A stretch of DNA of 57,922 bases from Clostridiales bacterium (GTDB lineage: Bacteria; Bacillota; Clostridia; Caldicoprobacterales; DTU083), in the NCBI GenBank assembly GCA_012839095.1, contig DUOA01000091.1, forward strand, positions 1 through 57,922, in the 5' to 3' direction. Below, piece by piece: positions 13,435 through 57,631 of this stretch (position 1 is its first letter; every line of letters begins with the position of its first letter). A program made the position numbers and the translations under genes. The notes beneath the pieces are model-generated. The model was given only the letters and a program-made list of their open reading frames with translations. It searched no databases and was not told the origin of the DNA.

Positions 13435-15428
<1,994 letters not shown>

Positions 15429-15432
<4 letters not shown>

Positions 15433-20244: not shown

Positions 20245-23200
20245 ATGACTATAGGTAATACTTCCGCTTCGCAAAAGATCTTGCCGGATTTGCCTTTTGA
20301 TGAACTGGGTTTAGAGGGAATCAGGCTGAAAGTAGATAAGATACTGGTTTACAAGAAAAGTCAAATCTGGGAGATTCATATAAGCACGTCGCATTATATT
20401 TCTTATAATAAAATGAGTATGCTGCAGAAAAAGCTGCAGGATTATTTTTTTGACATAGAACAAATAAGGATACGATTAAGCAGTCAAAAGAGTCTGAATG
20501 AAATTATCCATGATTTTACTCATATCTGGAAAGATATGCAAGAGTATATAAAGGATGACATGCCTTCTGTTACCTGGCTGGACTCCAGTTCCTGTCACTG
20601 GGAAGGAAATGTGCTTAATATTTGTGTAAGTCAATCTGCAAAGCTGGACATCGCAACACATAAAGAGGTACCTCAGTGGATAGAAGAATGGTTCAGGAAT
20701 ACTTTTCTTCAAAGTATAAAGGTTAATATTTATCAGGAAGATAAAAAAGATTCTTTAGTTCCTGATACATATTTTGAAGTAAGAAAACAGGAAGAGCTGG
20801 AGCTTGTTCGACAGGCTACCATGCTCAATGCTTCCACCGAACAGAAACAAGTAAAACAGAACAGCAGCGGAGAGAATACTGTGCTTCTGGGCCGTGCAAT
20901 TAAAGATGCTCCCGTTTCCATTGATACCTTACGGGAGGATAGCGGCAGAGTGACCATAGAAGGCTGCATATTTGATATGGAGATCAGGGAACTGGGCAGA
21001 GGAAAAGTTCTCACTGATAAGGAGATAAATGAGCTTCGGGAAGGAAAAATTCTTATAACACTGGATGTTACGGATTACACCAGTTCTGTCACTGCAAAAG
21101 TCTTTCTGGATTGGAAAAAGACAAAATCACTTGCCGGCAGGCTAAGGAAAGGTAATTGGTATAAACTCAGGGGAGACTGTCAATATGACAGATACCAAAA
21201 AGAAATCGTTCTGAGACCTACTGACATAAATACAGCACAGACCAGAATAAGGATGGATAATGCCCCGAAAAAAAGAGTGGAGCTGCATTTGCATACTCAA
21301 ATGAGTGCTTTGGATGCAGTATCTTCTGTAAAATCTTTAATTGAAAGGGCTGCTTTCTGGGGACATTCAGCTGTTGCCATAACTGATCACGGGGTAGTGC
21401 AGGCTTTTCCCGAGGCCTATGCTGCAGGGAAAAAAAATGGAGTAAAGACTATATTTGGTGTAGAGGCATATCTGATAAATGACTTAAGACCAATAATTCA
21501 ATACAGCAGGGAAGATGACTTTGATCAGACCTTTGTTGCTCTGGATATTGAGACCACCGGTTTGGATTCAATTAATAATGAAATCATAGAAATCGGCGCA
21601 GTCAAAATTCAGGGAAGAAGAGTAATTGACACCTTTCACTCCTTTGTCTCTCCTGTTCATCCTATACCCCCTCACATAACTGAGTTGACCGGCATCAGGC
21701 AGGATATGACAGATGGCGCACCTGAAATAGGACAGGTTTTGCCGCAATTTTTTGCCTTTTGCGGAAATGCTGCTTTGGCTGCCCATAACGCTTCCTTTGA
21801 TCTGGGTTTTATCAGAGAAAAGGGAAGGTCCCTGGGGCTTTCCCTTAATCAGCCAATAATAGATACTTTGGCCTTATCGAGGGAGTTGCTGCCAAATTTA
21901 AAGCGCCACAAGCTGAATCTGGTTGCTGAGCATCTGGGAATTAAACTGAAGAATCACCACCGGGCAACTGATGATGCAGAAGCGGCCGGTGATATTTTGA
22001 TGAAGTTCTTTGAAATGCTGGAAGAGCAGGGAGTATATAACCTGGATGAGATAAACGGCATGTTCCGCAGCAGAAAAAATTTAAATAGACTGCAAAGCTA
22101 TCATGCTGTTTTACTGGTTAAGAATGCTGTGGGCCTGAAGAATCTGTACAGGCTGATTTCAATGTCACACCTTGAATATTATTACAGAAGGCCTCGTATA
22201 CCTAAGAGTCTGCTGGCACAGTTCCGGGAGGGCCTGCTTATCGGCTCGGGCTGTGAATCCGGTGAATTATACCGGGCTGTTATGCAGAATCTTCCTGATG
22301 AAGAAATCAAAGAAATTATTGAGTTTTATGATTACCTTGAAATTCAGCCTATTGGTAACAATCAGCATCTAATTCGTACCAGGCAGGCAGCGGATGATGA
22401 AAGTCTCAGGGAAATTAACCACCGCATCCTTCAACTGGGAAGCAAACATAACAAAAGAGTGGTGGCAACCGGAGATGTACACTTTCTGGATCCCCATGAT
22501 GAATATTTCAGGCGTATCCTTATGAGCGGCCGGAAATTCGATGATGCCGACAGCCAAGCGCCCCTGTATTACAGAACCACTGATGAAATGCTGGAGGAAT
22601 TCTCCTATTTGGGCGAGAAAATGGCTCAACAGGTTGTCATAGAAGCACCTTGCAGTATCGCTGAAGAAATAGTAGACGTGCAGCCCATCCCTGAACAGCT
22701 GTTCCCTCCGGAAATCCCGGGTGCGGAAGAGGAAATCCGCAGGATGTCTCTGGAAAAAGCCAGACAGATATATGGCAGTCCCCTGCCGGACATAGTAGAA
22801 AAGAGACTGGATAAGGAGCTAAAATCCATTATCGGTAATGGTTTTGCAGTTTTATACCTCATAGCCCACAAACTGGTTAAGAAGTCCAATCAGGACGGTT
22901 ATCTGGTAGGCTCACGAGGTTCCGTAGGTTCTTCATTTGTAGCAACCCTGACAGGTATAACTGAGGTAAATCCTCTTCCTCCTCACTATGTCTGCCCGGG
23001 CTGCAGACATTCTGACTTCAGCGTGGATACAGAAAAATTTGGATGCGGTGCGGACTTACCCGATAAAACTTGTCCCAACTGCGGCCATGAATACAAAAAG
23101 GACGGTTTTGACATACCTTTTGAGGTTTTTCTTGGGTTTAAGGGCGACAAGGTACCGGATATCGACCTAAATTTTTCAGGAGAATACCAGGCTTCAGCAC

Positions 23201-24600
23201 ACAAGTATACGGAAGAACTTTTAGGAGAAGGCCAGGTTTTCCGGGCCGGTACCATAGGTACCATAGCTGAGAAAACCGCATTTGGCTTTGTTAAGAAATA
23301 CCTGGAATCCAAGCAGGTTGTATCCACCAACGCTGAAATTAAAAGGTTGGTAGCCGGTTGCACCGGTGTTAAGCGTACAACAGGCCAACACCCGGGAGGC
23401 ATCCTGGTTGTACCTAAAAGCAAGGAAATATATGATTTTACCCCTATTCAGCATCCTGCAGATGATAAGAATTCGGGGGTTATTACATCACATTTTGATT
23501 TCCACGCAATTCACGATACGCTGGTAAAACTGGATATTCTTGGCCATGATGATCCTACTGTCATCAGGATGCTGGAGGATATTACGGGGGTGGATGCCCA
23601 GAGTATCCCATTGGGGGAATCTGCCACCATGAAACTCTTTTCCAGCACAGAACCACTGAACTTAAACCCGGAGGACATAAACAGTCCGGTCGGCACCTTT
23701 GGAGTGCCCGAATTTGGAACCAGGTTTGTTCGTCAGATGCTGATCGATACCAAACCCACTACTTTTGCAGAGCTGATTCGCATAAGCGGGCTTTCCCATG
23801 GCACCGATGTCTGGCTGAACAATGCACAGGAATTGATACGCAGCGATATTGCAACCCTTCGTGAAGTCATAAGTACCCGGGACGACATCATGATTTATTT
23901 AATCAATCGCGGACTGGAACCTACCACAGCTTTCAATATCATGGAAAATGTCCGAAAGGGGAAGGGTCTGACTCCGGAAATGGAACAGATTATGCAAGAG
24001 AATGCTGTTCCCAAATGGTATATAGATTCCTGCAAAAAAATAAAGTATATGTTTCCAAAAGCCCATGCAGCAGCTTACGTTATAATGTCATTCCGAATAG
24101 CCTGGTTTAAGGTTTATTTTCCAAAAGCTTTCTATACTGCCTATTTCACTGTCCGGGCGGATGATTTTGATGCCTCGTTGACTATGAAAGGACCGGAATC
24201 CGTTCGAAATGCCATTAAACAGCTGGATGCCAGAGGTAACGATTTATCAGCTAAGGAAAGGAATGTTTTAACCATTCTTGAAGTTGTCCTGGAAATGTAT
24301 TTGAGAAATATTTCCTTTGTGCCCATTGATCTGTATAAGTCTCATGCTGAAAGATTTCTTATTACAGAGGATGGTATCCGCCCGCCCCTGAATGCACTGC
24401 AGGGTGTAGGCGTCAACGCTGCCAGAAGCATCGTAGAAGCGAGAAATCAGGGGGAGTTTATCTCCATTGAGGACTTGAGGGATAGGTCCAGAATAACAAA
24501 AACTGCAATAGAAGCCTTAAAAGAGCAGGGTGTATTGAAAAACATGCCTGAAACAAGCCAGATTTCGTTATTTTCTCTTGCTTTTCCCTCTGATAAGTAG
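20245..24600 (+). CDS. polC: DNA polymerase III alpha subunit, PolC type
   Basis: Main replicative polymerase of low-GC Gram-positives, with built-in proofreading. It has 1451 residues. Order of domains: N-terminal domain (1-220), OB fold (about 225-335), PHP domain (HLHTQMSALD near 350, then AITDHGVVQAFPEA), and the DEDDh exonuclease inserted in PHP (ALDIETTGLD near 432; AHNASFDLGF; HRATDDAEA). Then come the polymerase core with a four-Cys zinc site (CPGC, CGAD, CPNC) and catalytic PDIDLNFSGEYQ near 972, and a helix-hairpin-helix near the C-terminus. The ATG at 20245 follows AGGGGGAT; an ATG at 20241 is in another frame and stops at once. Confidence 0.98.
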   Translation: MTIGNTSASQKILPDLPFDELGLEGIRLKVDKILVYKKSQIWEIHISTSHYISYNKMSMLQKKLQDYFFDIEQIRIRLSSQKSLNEIIHDFTHIWKDMQEYIKDDMPSVTWLDSSSCHWEGNVLNICVSQSAKLDIATHKEVPQWIEEWFRNTFLQSIKVNIYQEDKKDSLVPDTYFEVRKQEELELVRQATMLNASTEQKQVKQNSSGENTVLLGRAIKDAPVSIDTLREDSGRVTIEGCIFDMEIRELGRGKVLTDKEINELREGKILITLDVTDYTSSVTAKVFLDWKKTKSLAGRLRKGNWYKLRGDCQYDRYQKEIVLRPTDINTAQTRIRMDNAPKKRVELHLHTQMSALDAVSSVKSLIERAAFWGHSAVAITDHGVVQAFPEAYAAGKKNGVKTIFGVEAYLINDLRPIIQYSREDDFDQTFVALDIETTGLDSINNEIIEIGAVKIQGRRVIDTFHSFVSPVHPIPPHITELTGIRQDMTDGAPEIGQVLPQFFAFCGNAALAAHNASFDLGFIREKGRSLGLSLNQPIIDTLALSRELLPNLKRHKLNLVAEHLGIKLKNHHRATDDAEAAGDILMKFFEMLEEQGVYNLDEINGMFRSRKNLNRLQSYHAVLLVKNAVGLKNLYRLISMSHLEYYYRRPRIPKSLLAQFREGLLIGSGCESGELYRAVMQNLPDEEIKEIIEFYDYLEIQPIGNNQHLIRTRQAADDESLREINHRILQLGSKHNKRVVATGDVHFLDPHDEYFRRILMSGRKFDDADSQAPLYYRTTDEMLEEFSYLGEKMAQQVVIEAPCSIAEEIVDVQPIPEQLFPPEIPGAEEEIRRMSLEKARQIYGSPLPDIVEKRLDKELKSIIGNGFAVLYLIAHKLVKKSNQDGYLVGSRGSVGSSFVATLTGITEVNPLPPHYVCPGCRHSDFSVDTEKFGCGADLPDKTCPNCGHEYKKDGFDIPFEVFLGFKGDKVPDIDLNFSGEYQASAHKYTEELLGEGQVFRAGTIGTIAEKTAFGFVKKYLESKQVVSTNAEIKRLVAGCTGVKRTTGQHPGGILVVPKSKEIYDFTPIQHPADDKNSGVITSHFDFHAIHDTLVKLDILGHDDPTVIRMLEDITGVDAQSIPLGESATMKLFSSTEPLNLNPEDINSPVGTFGVPEFGTRFVRQMLIDTKPTTFAELIRISGLSHGTDVWLNNAQELIRSDIATLREVISTRDDIMIYLINRGLEPTTAFNIMENVRKGKGLTPEMEQIMQENAVPKWYIDSCKKIKYMFPKAHAAAYVIMSFRIAWFKVYFPKAFYTAYFTVRADDFDASLTMKGPESVRNAIKQLDARGNDLSAKERNVLTILEVVLEMYLRNISFVPIDLYKSHAERFLITEDGIRPPLNALQGVGVNAARSIVEARNQGEFISIEDLRDRSRITKTAIEALKEQGVLKNMPETSQISLFSLAFPSDK

Positions 24601-38836: not shown

Positions 38837-41131
38837 ATGAGAAAAAAGAGGCGAAAAACCGCAGCCTCAAAAAGAGGAGTTAAATATGAAATATCAGGCC
38901 TCCTGACTGCTTCTCTGGGGCTTTTTTTGGGGCTGACCATATACAGCCGGGGCCTCTCAGCCGGAGCAGTGGGGCTACTTATTTATCCTGTATTAAAAGG
39001 GCTTTTTGGGATAGTATCCTACATACTGCCTGTTATCATTGTTATAGCCGGCATTCTGATTGTCGCAGCACGTAGTAAGAAACTTAATCGCTCCAAGCTG
39101 GCGTTGACTGTTTTTTCTGTTTATTTTTTTCTTTGCTTTGTTCATCTTCTTTATTTCAGGCACTTTAGTGCAGAACAATTCAGCAGGTTTATAATGGATT
39201 CCTACAGAGGAGGAATGGAATCCCCGGCACTCGGAGCAGGTGCCTTCTGTGCGCCGGTTGTTTATATAGTCTACTCCCTTTTCGGCTTGCCTGGCGCTGT
39301 CATCTTTTTTATTACAGTCACTATAGTTTGTCTGCTTCTTCTGACAAACCTTTCCTTAAGGCAGCTAGGCAAGCGTATATCCAAAAGTTTGAAGCTGCAT
39401 CGCATTGCTGATGCATTAAACGATTATCGCAAAAAAAGCAGGGAAAACAGAAAAAAAGTTGTACCATCACCTGCACCGGTAGCCTTCTCGCTTCTTACTG
39501 CGGAGGCGGAGGTTGATCACACATCCTCAGCAGAGCCTGATCTGTCCGGACGGCAGCAAGATGATGATGACACTGATATTAAAATAATAGATTTTACGAC
39601 AGAAAGGGATAATGAGATAATTGCACCGACAGCACAGGAGAATGAAGCGGACAACAAGAACGGGGCTTCGATCCCTGAAATTGTTGTGCAGCAGGAATCC
39701 CTGCCCTACATGATTCCACCTATTGCTTTGTTAAAAGAGCCTGTTACAAGGAAAAACGCCGTAACAGCTGAAAAAATTGTCAAAAGAAATGCCAGGATTC
39801 TTACTGATACGCTGAACAGTTTTGGTGTTTCCGCCAAGGTGGTGCAGATTAGCCGTGGACCGGTAATTACCCGGTATGAACTGCAGCCTGCTCCAGGAGT
39901 CAAAGTCAGCCGTATTGTTAATCTTTCAGACGATATAGCACTTAATATGGCAGCTCCTGGTGTTAGGATAGAAGCGCCTATACCCGGGAAGGCTGCAGTG
40001 GGGATTGAGGTGCCGAATAAGAATGTTGCACCGGTAATTCTGAGGGAAGTATTGGAGTCTGATGACTTTTTCAATCATCCTTCCAGGCTGGCATTCGCTT
40101 TGGGAAAGGATATTGCCGGCAACAATGTCATTGCTGATATTGCCATGATGCCACATTTGCTGATTGCAGGAGCAACCGGCTCAGGCAAGAGTGTATGCAT
40201 CAATTCGCTGATAACCAGCATTCTTTATAAAGCCACACCTGACGAGGTCCGCCTGATAATGATCGATCCCAAAGTAGTGGAACTCAGCAGTTATAACGGT
40301 ATTCCCCATTTGATGATCCCTGTAGTAACTGATCCCAGAAAGGCAGCAGGAGCGCTGAACTGGGCTGTACAGGAAATGGGGACTCGTTATAAAATGTTTG
40401 CTGATAAAGGTGTTCGGGATATAGTCAGGTACAATGAGCAAATTCAGGATAATGAGAAAAAGCTGCCTCAGATAGTAGTTATTATTGATGAATTAGCCGA
40501 TCTTATGATGGTTGCACCCAGCGAGGTGGAAGACGCTATTTGCAGGCTGGCGCAGATGGCCAGAGCAGCAGGAATTCATCTGGTGATTGCTACACAGCGG
40601 CCTTCTGTAGACGTCATAACCGGTGTGATAAAGGCAAATATTCCTTCCCGAATCGCTTTTGCTGTTTCCTCCCAGACCGATTCACGAACCATCCTGGATA
40701 TGGGCGGAGCAGAAAAACTGCTGGGTAGAGGGGATATGCTCTTTTATCCTTCCGGAGCCAATAAGCCCAAAAGAGTACAGGGCGCATTTATTACTGAAGA
40801 AGAAGTAGAGGCCATAGTATCCTGTATAAAAAGTCAGAATGAAGCACCTAAGTACCAGATGGAGGTTCTGGAAGAGACTGCTGCTGATCAGGATGGACCC
40901 AACGGCAGCTTTGATGACGAATTACTGCCCGATGCCATTGAGGTAGTCATTGATGCAGGGCAGGCATCCATATCCATGATCCAACGCAGACTCAGGGTGG
41001 GTTATGCCAGGGCAGCCCGGCTGATAGACGAAATGGAAGTACGGGGGCTTGTCAGCGGCTTTGATGGCAGCAAGCCAAGAAATGTACTCATTACCAGAGA
41101 AGAGTTTGAAGAGAGCTACAGAAACAAATAA
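38837..41131 (+). CDS. ftsK: DNA translocase FtsK/SpoIIIE
   Basis: Septal ATP-driven DNA pump that clears chromosome arms at division and loads the forespore chromosome. It has 764 residues: four membrane segments in about 18-180, a variable acidic linker (about 195-290), the alpha/beta RecA-like motor with Walker A GATGSGKS near 444 and Walker [12 protein letters not shown] near 545, and a gamma winged-helix domain (about 695-764; [28 protein letters not shown] spread) that reads the orienting sequences. With tepA and ylzJ upstream this is the spoIIIE locus arrangement. GAGAGGTGG precedes the ATG. Confidence 0.96.
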
Positions 41132-41156
41132 GGAATCGAAAGGAGCATGTCTCCAA

Positions 41157-42494
41157 TTGCGAAATAAAGTAGGAATGGTCTCATTGGGATGTGTCAAAAA
41201 CCAGGTGGATGCAGAAGTGATGCTTGGCCTTCTGAATCAACATGGTTACCAAATAGTAAACACATCAGAAGAGGCTGATATTATCATAATCAACACCTGC
41301 GGATTTATCGGACCTGCCAAGGAGGAATCCATAAATGCCATTTTGGAACAGGCACAATATAAAAAGTCAGACAACCGCAAGCTCCTGGTAGTTACAGGTT
41401 GCCTCAGCCAGCGATACAGCAATGAATTGCTGAAGGAAATGCCCGAGGTGGATGCCGTTGTAGGGACCGGCAGCTATTCCCGCATAGTTGAGATACTGAA
41501 TGAAATAAAAGAAGGACAGCAAAAATCCTATCTGGGCAATCTGTCAGCCCGGGAGCAAGAAGGTCTGCCCCGTCTTCTAACTACCAACGGCCCTTCAGCT
41601 TACCTGAAGATAGCCGAAGGCTGCGATAATTGCTGTTCCTACTGCATTATACCCAAGATTAGAGGCCGGTACCGCAGCCGTTCCATTGCATCGGTGGTGA
41701 GGGAAGCAGAAGAGCTTGTCAGGAGTGGAATTCGAGAGCTGATTGTGGTTGCACAGGATGTTACCCGCTATGGTCAGGACAGCAGCGGAGAATACAACCT
41801 GGTTATGCTGCTTGATAAATTGTGCAGGATACAGGATTTAAAATGGATTCGACTGATGTATTGTTATCCTGATCGGATTTCCGATGAATTAATGGATCTG
41901 ATGGCAAAGGAAGAAAAAATCTGCAACTATCTGGATATTCCCATTCAGCATATCAATCAGCGAATTTTGTCCCGAATGAATCGTATCTCTGACAGCGATC
42001 AAATACGCCGTCTGCTCAGAACTTTGAAAGAAAGAATACCGAATGTATCCCTGCGCACCTCTCTTATAACCGGGTTTCCGGGGGAAGGAGAAGAGGAATT
42101 CCGGGAGTTGATGGAATTTGTTGAGGAAGGGCATTTCCAGCATTTGGGTGTTTTCTCCTATTCACAGGAGGAGGGTACACCGGCCGCTTCCTTTCCGGAT
42201 CAGGTGGAGGAAGCGGTAAAGGAAGAGCGGCGCCACCGTCTGCTGGCATTACAAGCCCGGGTATCAAGGCGTATCAAAAGAGCCAGGTGCGGGGAAATTT
42301 GTGATGTGCTTGTGGAGGGTTCGGACTCAAACGGTCTCTATTTTGGACGATCCCATGCAGAAGCACCGGAAATCGATGGATTGATTTATTTTTCAAGTAA
42401 ATCCGCCCTGCAAACCGGAACTTTTGTCCGTGCTGTTATTACCAAAGCTTTTGATTATGATCTATTGGGGGAAGCTTATGAATCTGGCGAATAA
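41157..42494 (+). CDS. rimO: Ribosomal protein S12 methylthiotransferase RimO
   Basis: Radical-SAM enzyme that methylthiolates an Asp of ribosomal protein S12. The N-terminal UPF0004 domain (MVSLGCVKNQVDAE, NTCGF, GCLSQRY) binds the auxiliary [4Fe-4S] cluster through three Cys. The radical-SAM cluster motif is CDNCCSYC (CxxxCxxC) near 160. A TRAM domain closes the 445 residues. TTG at 41157 is the most plausible start (AAAGGAG about 11 bases upstream); the ATG at 41175 would remove the first strand. RimO is chosen over MiaB from the SLGCVKN opening and the TRAM end. Confidence 0.94.
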   Translation: MRNKVGMVSLGCVKNQVDAEVMLGLLNQHGYQIVNTSEEADIIIINTCGFIGPAKEESINAILEQAQYKKSDNRKLLVVTGCLSQRYSNELLKEMPEVDAVVGTGSYSRIVEILNEIKEGQQKSYLGNLSAREQEGLPRLLTTNGPSAYLKIAEGCDNCCSYCIIPKIRGRYRSRSIASVVREAEELVRSGIRELIVVAQDVTRYGQDSSGEYNLVMLLDKLCRIQDLKWIRLMYCYPDRISDELMDLMAKEEKICNYLDIPIQHINQRILSRMNRISDSDQIRRLLRTLKERIPNVSLRTSLITGFPGEGEEEFRELMEFVEEGHFQHLGVFSYSQEEGTPAASFPDQVEEAVKEERRHRLLALQARVSRRIKRARCGEICDVLVEGSDSNGLYFGRSHAEAPEIDGLIYFSSKSALQTGTFVRAVITKAFDYDLLGEAYESGE

Positions 42495-47688: not shown

Positions 47689-48342
47689 CTAGTATTCTGC
47701 CATATCACATTTGAAGTGAAGAAAAATTATATTGGGACAATTACTATGATATTCCAGTCGTTTCACCTTAGCTCCCTTTCTTATGCTCTTTCCGCACTTA
47801 AGGCATATGTAATTGCTTTTATACAAAACATCTTCTTTCACGTCGACTTTCAAATTTCCATACTTGATCCAGCTTTTCCAGCCGGTTTTGCAAAGTACCA
47901 TTCGCTTTCTGTAATCTGCATATACCCATCGCAGAATCCTGTGAAAATGAAGGGGATACTTTGTATATTTAACATACTGAAGAGGCAGTCCCAGGCAGAG
48001 GGCATACTCCTGAAAAGTATGTTCTATGCGGGATTGCAGTGGTTCCAATATTTTGGCGGACCGATAAGGTATGCGTCTCTCATCAAGATATTTTCTGGCC
48101 TGATCAAACATATAGCCCCGGCAAATCTCTACCTCCTCGTCTGGTTTCCAGTTTAACCTTTCCAGCAAAGATAATACAATATGGCCGCATTTGATCAAAT
48201 AGTTCTTGCTGCGAAACAAATCTCCCCTGTAATATTCAACAGGAATATAATCGTATACGTACTCTTCCGTTTCCACTCTGATAGCGCCAATGCAGGTCCC
48301 GCCTATCAAACTGCCGCTGCCTGAATCATCGATTTGTATCAC
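47689..48342 (-). CDS. Unrecognised protein: RNase-H-like N-terminus and C-terminal Cys/His zinc-binding segment
   Basis: The only minus-strand protein gene in the window, 217 residues. I do not recognise a named family. The N-terminus, IQIDDSGSGSLIGGTCIGAI, followed by strands (EYVYDYIPVEYY), resembles the first strand and glycine loop of an RNase-H/RuvC-like fold. The middle is helical and rich in aromatic and basic residues (HFHRILRWVYADYRKRM). The end has CLKCGKSI, a basic stretch, then Cys and His residues (YHSNCPN, HFKCDM), a likely zinc knuckle. GTG at 48342 is chosen for GGAGAG 7 bases upstream; TTG at 48357 lies before that SD. Base use is like its neighbours. Confidence 0.7.
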   Translation of the reverse strand: MIQIDDSGSGSLIGGTCIGAIRVETEEYVYDYIPVEYYRGDLFRSKNYLIKCGHIVLSLLERLNWKPDEEVEICRGYMFDQARKYLDERRIPYRSAKILEPLQSRIEHTFQEYALCLGLPLQYVKYTKYPLHFHRILRWVYADYRKRMVLCKTGWKSWIKYGNLKVDVKEDVLYKSNYICLKCGKSIRKGAKVKRLEYHSNCPNIIFLHFKCDMAEY

Positions 48343-48424
48343 AGAGCCACTCTCCAATCATAATGCCATCCTGAATTTACCGACTCAATATTTATGTAAG
48401 CATTTCCGGATGTTAAAATAGTAT

Positions 48425-48454
48425 TTGTATCCAATGTCCGAACTATAATATAAT
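48425..48454 (+). promoter_or_regulatory. Promoter of surE
   Basis: TTGTAT (48425-48430), 18 bases, TATAAT (48449-48454); a second TATAAT overlaps at 48444-48449. It is about 33 bases before the surE ATG. Confidence 0.65.
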
Positions 48455-57094: not shown

Positions 57095-57180
57095 TGGTGG
57101 GGGAGGGCGGATTCGAACCACCGAAAGCTGAGCTAACAGATTTACAGTCTGCCCCCTTTGGCCAACTCGGGAACTCCCCC
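57095..57180 (-). tRNA. tRNA-Tyr (GTA)
   Basis: On the minus strand the acceptor GGGGGAG pairs with CTCCCCC; the anticodon stem-loop CAGACTGTAAATCTG gives GTA. A long variable arm marks it as a class II tRNA, as bacterial tRNA-Tyr is. The CCA end is encoded (57095-57097). Confidence 0.93.
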
Positions 57181-57307
57181 ACATGGATATAAAATTGGAT
57201 ATCAGACGCCTAAAAGCGTTTTCAGAGTTCAGATACCGGACTTAGGCAACACTCAGGTCAGCATTACGCAAATTTGACTTCGGATTTCCGGCTTCTGACT
57301 TCATAAA

Positions 57308-57383
57308 TGGTGCCTCGGGGCGGAATCGAACCACCGACACGTAGATTTTCAGTCTACTGCTCTACCGACTGAGCTACCGAGGC
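57308..57383 (-). tRNA. tRNA-Phe (GAA)
   Basis: Minus strand: acceptor GCCTCGG with CCGAGGC, D-arm AGCTCAGTCGGTAGAGC, anticodon loop CTGAAAA giving GAA, T-arm with GGTTCGATTCC. CCA is encoded. A 127-base spacer of unclear content separates it from tRNA-Tyr. Confidence 0.95.
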
Positions 57384-57388
57384 AAAGA

Positions 57389-57465
57389 TGGTGGGCCTTC
57401 AGGGACTCGAACCCCGGACCGACCGGTTATGAGCCGGTTGCTCTAACCAACTGAGCTAAAGGCCC
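57389..57465 (-). tRNA. tRNA with CAT anticodon: Met (elongator) or Ile2
   Basis: Minus strand: acceptor GGGCCTT with AAGGCCC, anticodon loop CTCATAA giving CAT, CCA encoded. It has C4-G69 and C5-G68 pairs, which TilS uses to recognise tRNA-Ile2, and its 5' half resembles Bacillus tRNA-Ile(CAU). Clostridial elongator tRNA-Met can look similar, so identity is left open. The sequence does not look like an initiator tRNA (1-72 is a G-C pair). Confidence 0.9.
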
Positions 57466-57475
57466 TCAGTAAAAA

Positions 57476-57550
57476 TGGTGACCCCTAGGGGATTCGAACC
57501 CCTGTTACCGCCGTGAAAGGGCGGTGTCTTAACCACTTGACCAAGGGGCC
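57476..57550 (-). tRNA. tRNA-Glu (TTC)
   Basis: Minus strand: acceptor GGCCCCT with AGGGGTC (one G-U), anticodon loop CTTTCAC giving TTC, T-arm AGGGGTTCGAATCCCCT, CCA encoded. Confidence 0.95.
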
Positions 57551-57554
57551 ACGC

Positions 57555-57631
57555 TGGTCGGGGCGACAGGATTCGAACCTGCGACCCCCTGGTCCCAAAC
57601 CAGGTGCGCTACCAAACTGCGCCACACCCCG
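57555..57631 (-). tRNA. tRNA-Pro (TGG)
   Basis: Minus strand: acceptor CGGGGTG with CGCCCCG, D-arm GGCGCAGTTTGGTAGCGC, anticodon loop TTTGGGA giving TGG, T-arm with GGTTCGAATCC, CCA encoded. It is the first gene of the operon. Confidence 0.95.

Follow-up and report, generated by a model that had tools for sequence, protein, structure and literature searches.

A conserved, unnamed gene family of Clostridia with a predicted divergent RNase H-like domain, a putatively rearranged active site, and a zinc-type tail

Introduction

The best described relatives in structure of the protein analyzed here are the type 2 and type 3 RNases H, in which an Asp-Glu-x-Gly-x-Gly motif supplies the first two catalytic acids and a GRG/GXG loop that touches the ribose 2'-OH through its backbone (PMC3025331, PMC4132731). 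In T. maritima RNase H2 the Asp-Glu pair corresponds to D18 and E19, and loss of the strand-4 aspartate through the D107N substitution abolishes activity (PMC3025331). The RNase H-like core is also found in retroviral integrases, which use a D-D-E site, and in several uncharacterized bacterial families, such as YkuK/DUF458 and the domains of unknown function newly listed as RNase H-like in a published survey (PMC3985635). In the passages of that survey that were searched, none of the families carries the motif reported here, and the protein matches none of their Pfam models.

The gene lies on a 57,922-nucleotide stretch (hereafter, the window) that constitutes contig DUOA01000091.1 of a Clostridiales bacterium assembly (GCA_012839095.1). 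With RNase H2 (RNase HII, rnhB; PF01351), its product shares a predicted RNase H fold with a helical extension, the position of an acidic pair at the end of strand 1, and the G-x-G loop, but it presents Asp instead of Glu as the second acid, no Arg in the loop, Cys at the predicted place of the strand-4 Asp, a variable fourth acid, and an added zinc-type domain. Neither the protein nor its relatives match PF01351, whereas a search of the genome with this model recovers a separate, normal rnhB gene elsewhere. With RNase H3 (RNase HIII, rnhC) it has in common a GXG rather than a GRG loop (PMC4132731) and, as in some RNases H3, a Ser following the loop; RNase H3 is moreover the best structural match of the short subfamily described below (4py5, Z 9.5). 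It differs from RNase H3 in lacking a separate N-terminal substrate-binding domain and in the same active-site substitutions that set it apart from RNase H2. The retroviral integrase core shares with it the RNase H-like core, a first Asp in register, and a Glu in the helix that follows strand 5, but the strand-4 Asp is missing from our protein, the structural match is shorter, and there is no mobile-element context.

Results

Gene Structure and Genomic Context

The lone minus-strand gene pointed out in a preliminary description of the window is a real open reading frame with exactly the extent then given, comprising 217 codons and a stop (Table 1). Substitutions with respect to four close orthologues fall mostly at third codon positions (e.g., 32/27/114 at positions 1/2/3 against L002), and this excess points to purifying selection on the minus-strand frame. 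A possible TTG start at 48357 was rejected, since it overlaps the GGAGAG site and finds no support in most orthologues, whose sequences open with M-I-Q-I-D-D. The gene is present in a single copy in its own genome.

Table 1. Coordinates of the gene, its upstream signals, and the predicted features of its product within the window.
Feature	Positions	Strand	Basis and remarks
CDS, 217 aa	47689..48342	-	GTG start at 48342, stop 47689-47691; orthologue starts, codon-position bias
Likely ribosome-binding site GGAGAG	48350..48355	-	7 nt before GTG; sequence
Promoter-like element ATA-N16-CAAATACTA (= HATR-N18-NATACTA)	48419..48446	-	Conserved upstream of orthologues
Predicted RNase H-like domain, residues 1-168	47839..48342	-	b1 b2 b3 - a - b4 - a - b5 - a - helical extension; AF2 model, structure comparison (aligned 1-164 to 1-168)
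D5-D6, end of strand 1	48325..48330	-	In register with RNase H2/H3 Asp-Glu catalytic pair
G8-S9-G10	48313..48321	-	Putative counterpart of GRG/GXG loop reading ribose 2'-OH; alignments, PMC3025331, PMC4132731
Cys74, end of strand 4	48121..48123	-	Predicted site of catalytic Asp in RNase H2/H3; invariant in three subfamilies
Glu107, helix after strand 5	48022..48024	-	Invariant in three subfamilies
Lys152	47887..47889	-	Invariant in three subfamilies
C-terminal zinc-type domain	47692..47838	-	C180, C183, H209, C212 = 47803-47805, 47794-47796, 47716-47718, 47707-47709

Profile matches to the neighboring genes (SpoVS, E 9e-39; SurE, E 7e-64) bear out the reported position between spoVS and surE. 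The statement that no other antisense gene occurs in the 57 kb is likewise borne out, in so far as proteins are concerned: among open reading frames of at least 60 aa, the window contains four others on the minus strand (63-91 aa), none of which matches Pfam. Two of them are the opposite strand of a plus-strand, frr-like frame at 14878-15432 (the name frr was read by eye), and another overlaps a minus-strand tRNA cluster. This cluster, at the end of the window (57095-57631, minus strand), comprises five tRNA genes (Tyr, Phe, Met, Glu, and Pro). Elsewhere in the window, a 1.3 kb stretch (41131-42424) holds only one small minus-strand open reading frame (84 aa), without a Pfam match.

Adjacency to spoVS is confined to the nearest relatives of the gene; in other genomes the neighbors are oadA, rpiR-type, iorAB-type, DAK-type, or peptidase genes (names assigned by eye). 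The flanking genes are conserved, the gene itself shows no sign of mobility, and no relatives were found in the viral contigs and phages searched, so that a viral or phage origin was discarded. In subfamily 1, defined below, the closest sizeable genes to the left and right are both on the opposite strand in 37 of 38 neighborhoods by our recount, despite the differing neighbors; the pattern was noted for the gene at 47689-48342 and for loci L071-L102.

Family Distribution

The preliminary description had been unable to assign the protein to a family, and profile searches lead to the same outcome. The protein has no match in Pfam or NCBIfam, its relatives have none at or above the cut-off, with all three subfamilies absent from both collections, a PHROGs search returned a single chance-level match (E 0.068), and a sequence profile search of the PDB gave no meaningful match. 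Searching with the window protein (E < 0.001; full-length matches at no less than 44% identity), relatives were identified in 46 of the 291 genomes sampled from its class, while a 34-row profile, remote members included, matched 37 of the 398 genomes in a sample of the phylum. Genomes normally carry one member. The family is conserved across spore-forming Clostridia, and is unnamed in Pfam and NCBIfam.

Three subfamilies can be distinguished among the relatives from the class and phylum samples; identity with the short-form reference is 21-32%. Subfamily 1, which includes the window protein, spans about 212-217 aa and combines IDDAGSGSL with one zinc motif. Subfamily 2, found in 9 of the 29 genomes of one sampled class, is shorter (about 175 aa), bears IDDAGGGC, and has no zinc motif. 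Subfamily 3 (L198-L217), present in 40 of the 113 genomes of another sampled class, is a separate unclassified family of about 280 aa with [VI]EDAGGGC and two Cys/His clusters.

Predicted Fold

AlphaFold2 models were obtained for the window protein, with the orthologue alignment (pLDDT 90.8), and separately for the short subfamily 2, with a 39-row alignment (pLDDT 92.5). In both models the secondary-structure elements follow one another as E E E H E H E H, in agreement with the RNase H-like superfamily, where a three-stranded antiparallel sheet gives way to alternating helices and strands and strands 4 and 5 are parallel. When VIA-align was run on the Foldseek candidates, the A. fulgidus RNase HII ranked first for the window model (Z 11.5, rmsd 3.4, 153 residues), and the best 19 rows were all type 2/3 RNases H; the first other row was a retroviral integrase (Z 8.2). 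The alignments with RNase HII/HIII span 153-161 residues, vs. about 116 for the integrases. Foldseek by itself places retroviral integrases on top for the window model (E about 1e-4). With VIA-align, the short model matches RNase H3 first, but integrases follow from Z 8.2, within about 1.3 Z, and hence this result alone places the short subfamily only in the superfamily. RuvC and other resolvases are absent among the structural matches listed.

At the sequence level there is no significant match to RNase HII (profile probability at most 13%), although a profile alignment with 28 RNase HII proteins, at a weak 13% probability, recovers the same first motif in the same register. These models make us highly confident that the window protein adopts an RNase H-like fold, and strongly predict that it is closest in structure to the type 2/3 RNases H. 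Profile search and structure prediction had been proposed earlier as the means of checking the RNase H-type first strand perceived in the sequence; no unrelated fold ranks on top, and in the structure comparison D5 and D6 align with the catalytic Asp-Glu of RNase H2/H3. Because two of the four catalytic acids differ, the protein represents a divergent RNase H-like branch, and not an RNase H2 or H3.

Active-Site and Zinc-Type Residues

The first motif of the window protein, IQIDDSGSGSLIGGT, is nearly invariant, with D5, D6, G8, S9, G10, and S11 present in 34 of 34 orthologues, and IDDAGSGSL is in register with the Asp-Glu-x-Gly-x-Gly motif of RNase H2/H3. In the structure alignment, residue 1 of the model pairs with residue 2 of the A. 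fulgidus enzyme and residue 14 of the T. maritima enzyme, and these range starts, provided that the first six residues align ungapped, place D5 and D6 on T. maritima D18 and E19. The chain starts give this placement on the catalytic pair for the type 2/3 RNases H of known numbering. Among 39 superfamily members, position 5 is Asp (24) or Glu (15), and position 6 is Asp in all. The strand-1 pair is hence acidic at both positions (Asp-Asp, or Glu-Asp in subfamily 3) but differs from the canonical Asp-Glu, and the glycines that would form the G-x-G loop, G8 and G10, are invariant in 39/39. Residues invariant across all three subfamilies include D6, G8, G10, C74, E107, W139, and K152.

The remainder of the site departs from that of the known enzymes. 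Strand 4 (residues 71-74) ends in Cys74 in all 39 members, and not in the Asp of RNase H2/H3. Secondary structure, strand position, and spacing suggest that Cys74 is the equivalent of the strand-4 catalytic Asp; its distance to position 100 is 26 residues, equal to that between Asp180 and Glu206 in the T. ammonificans RNase H3. Position 100, which would host the fourth acid, is variable in the 34 orthologues (D in 19, E in 8, G in 5, and N in 2). The DSK loop that stabilizes the scissile phosphate in RNase H2/H3 is absent from both family alignments (A1 and A2).

At the C-terminus, the CxxC...HxxC arrangement formed by C180, C183, H209, and C212 is invariant in the 34 orthologues, and is found in all 30 tail-bearing members among the 39 of the superfamily; judging from this pattern, the tail domain presumably binds zinc. 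The preliminary description, which had noted a CxxC followed by later Cys/His residues, had made its proposal contingent on the conservation of the acidic residues and the cysteines in homologues, and the first-strand acids and all four putative ligands are indeed conserved. The nuclease reading that it drew from the first strand fares less uniformly: it is favored by the first-strand acids and by the predicted fold, but is rendered uncertain by the replacement of the strand-4 catalytic Asp with an invariant Cys.

Upstream Element and Relation to Sporulation

The top enriched hexamer upstream of the family genes is ATACTA, present in 26 of 61 sequences vs. 2 expected from neighbor genes. HATR precedes this box by exactly 18 nt in 22 of 54 cases, vs. 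0.9 expected and 1-9 at other spacings, counts to which five near relatives that share a divergent surE promoter may contribute. With this strict spacing, HATR-N18-NATACTA precedes subfamily-1 genes whose surroundings are otherwise unrelated, and it is absent upstream of subfamilies 2 and 3. The conserved sequence points to a dedicated promoter for subfamily-1 genes. It also fits the B. subtilis sigma-G consensus, making it a sporulation-type promoter on paper. In the carrier genomes, however, its frequency upstream of SASP (3/27), gpr (1/20), and spoIVA (0/20) genes is at background level, and the sigma-G assignment was accordingly dropped. A genome-wide search revealed no excess of the element over a backwards control.

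Across the 291 genomes sampled from the class, spoIVA occurs in 43 of 46 carriers and in 165 of the 245 genomes without the gene (Fisher 1.3e-4, with no account taken of phylogeny). The majority of genomes with spoIVA nonetheless lack the gene, including one of the same family (G098). Since most potential spore formers do without it, the gene is not a general sporulation requirement. The possible sporulation role suggested earlier drew on the location beside sporulation genes, and spoVS adjoins the gene only in its nearest relatives.

Discussion

The explanation that we favor, with moderate confidence, is that the window gene encodes a cytosolic two-domain nucleic-acid protein, made up of a divergent RNase H-like domain with a rearranged site and a zinc tail, and that this clostridial gene stands alone on the chromosome, has a promoter of its own, and is inherited vertically. 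On the basis of the models, the protein is probably an unconventional nucleic-acid binder or nuclease, and nucleic-acid binding in itself appears likely. As motif similarity to RNase H2/H3 suggests, the G-x-G loop and the adjacent Asp pair would grip the nucleic-acid backbone, possibly at the ribose 2'-OH, and the region of the Asp pair would bind a divalent metal. The other metal ligands would be rearranged, with Cys74 replacing the strand-4 Asp and Glu107 perhaps assuming a ligand role akin to that of the third acid of DDE integrases, while the CxxC...HxxC domain would carry a structural zinc and likely help hold the substrate. The most likely action would be the recognition, and possibly the cleavage, of an RNA-containing or structured duplex. 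The fact that the organism keeps its own RNase HII suggests for the protein a function other than the usual removal of ribonucleotides. A bolder version of this proposal, that the family constitutes a new class of metal-dependent RNase H-like nucleases in which an invariant Cys stands for the strand-4 Asp (D/E-D...C...E), acting on RNA-containing DNA in a clostridial developmental stage, strikes us as quite unlikely.

Catalysis may have been lost in this family, as the inactivity of the T. maritima D107N mutant (PMC3025331) implies, and the protein could be a catalytically dead RNase H-like protein with a binding or scaffold function, in which the conserved acids and Cys are structural or metal-binding only. 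The occurrence of Cys at the predicted place of the strand-4 Asp throughout the family, together with that of Gly or Asn in some members at the fourth acid position, agrees with this possibility, which we regard as rather unlikely although deserving of attention: D6, C74, E107, and K152 are invariant across subfamilies at 21-32% identity, and such invariance suggests a working site rather than decay. The ranking of retroviral integrases by Foldseek, together with the location of E107 in the helix that holds the Glu of integrases, raises the prospect that the protein uses a D-D-E site (D5, D6, and E107), either as a structure-specific DNA nuclease or as a domesticated relative of integrases/transposases, and is not a relative of RNase H2/H3. 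We deem this improbable, because full-length structural alignment of the window protein favors RNase HII/HIII by about 3 Z and with greater coverage, the DDAGxG motif is RNase H2/H3-like, and the gene shows no sign of mobility. As to timing, a role specific to sporulation or to the spore, with spore nucleic acid as the target in the forespore or the mother cell, would be compatible with the two-domain explanation that we favor, and could draw on the spoIVA enrichment, the adjoining spoVS of the closest relatives, and the sporulation sigma-factor type of the element on paper. We consider it unlikely, in view of the many spoIVA genomes without the gene (G098 among them), the background frequency of the element before SASP, gpr, and spoIVA genes in the carriers, its lack of excess over the backwards control genome-wide, and its absence in subfamilies 2 and 3.

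An unnamed and widely conserved family of Clostridia can now be assigned a predicted fold and a likely active site, and divided into three subfamilies. If active, its members would be RNase H-like enzymes without the strand-4 Asp that T. maritima RNase H2 needs, providing a test of the limits to which a two-metal site can be rebuilt; if inactive, they would be conserved nucleic-acid readers. In either case, the site residues are few and easily mutated. One unannotated relative, with 50.7% identity, was also encountered in the Geosporobacter ferrireducens plasmid record NZ_CP017270.1, where it lies in two pieces at 22665-23257 (L218:4001-4593), in a stretch for which the gene table gives only a 2-oxoacid oxidoreductase gene.
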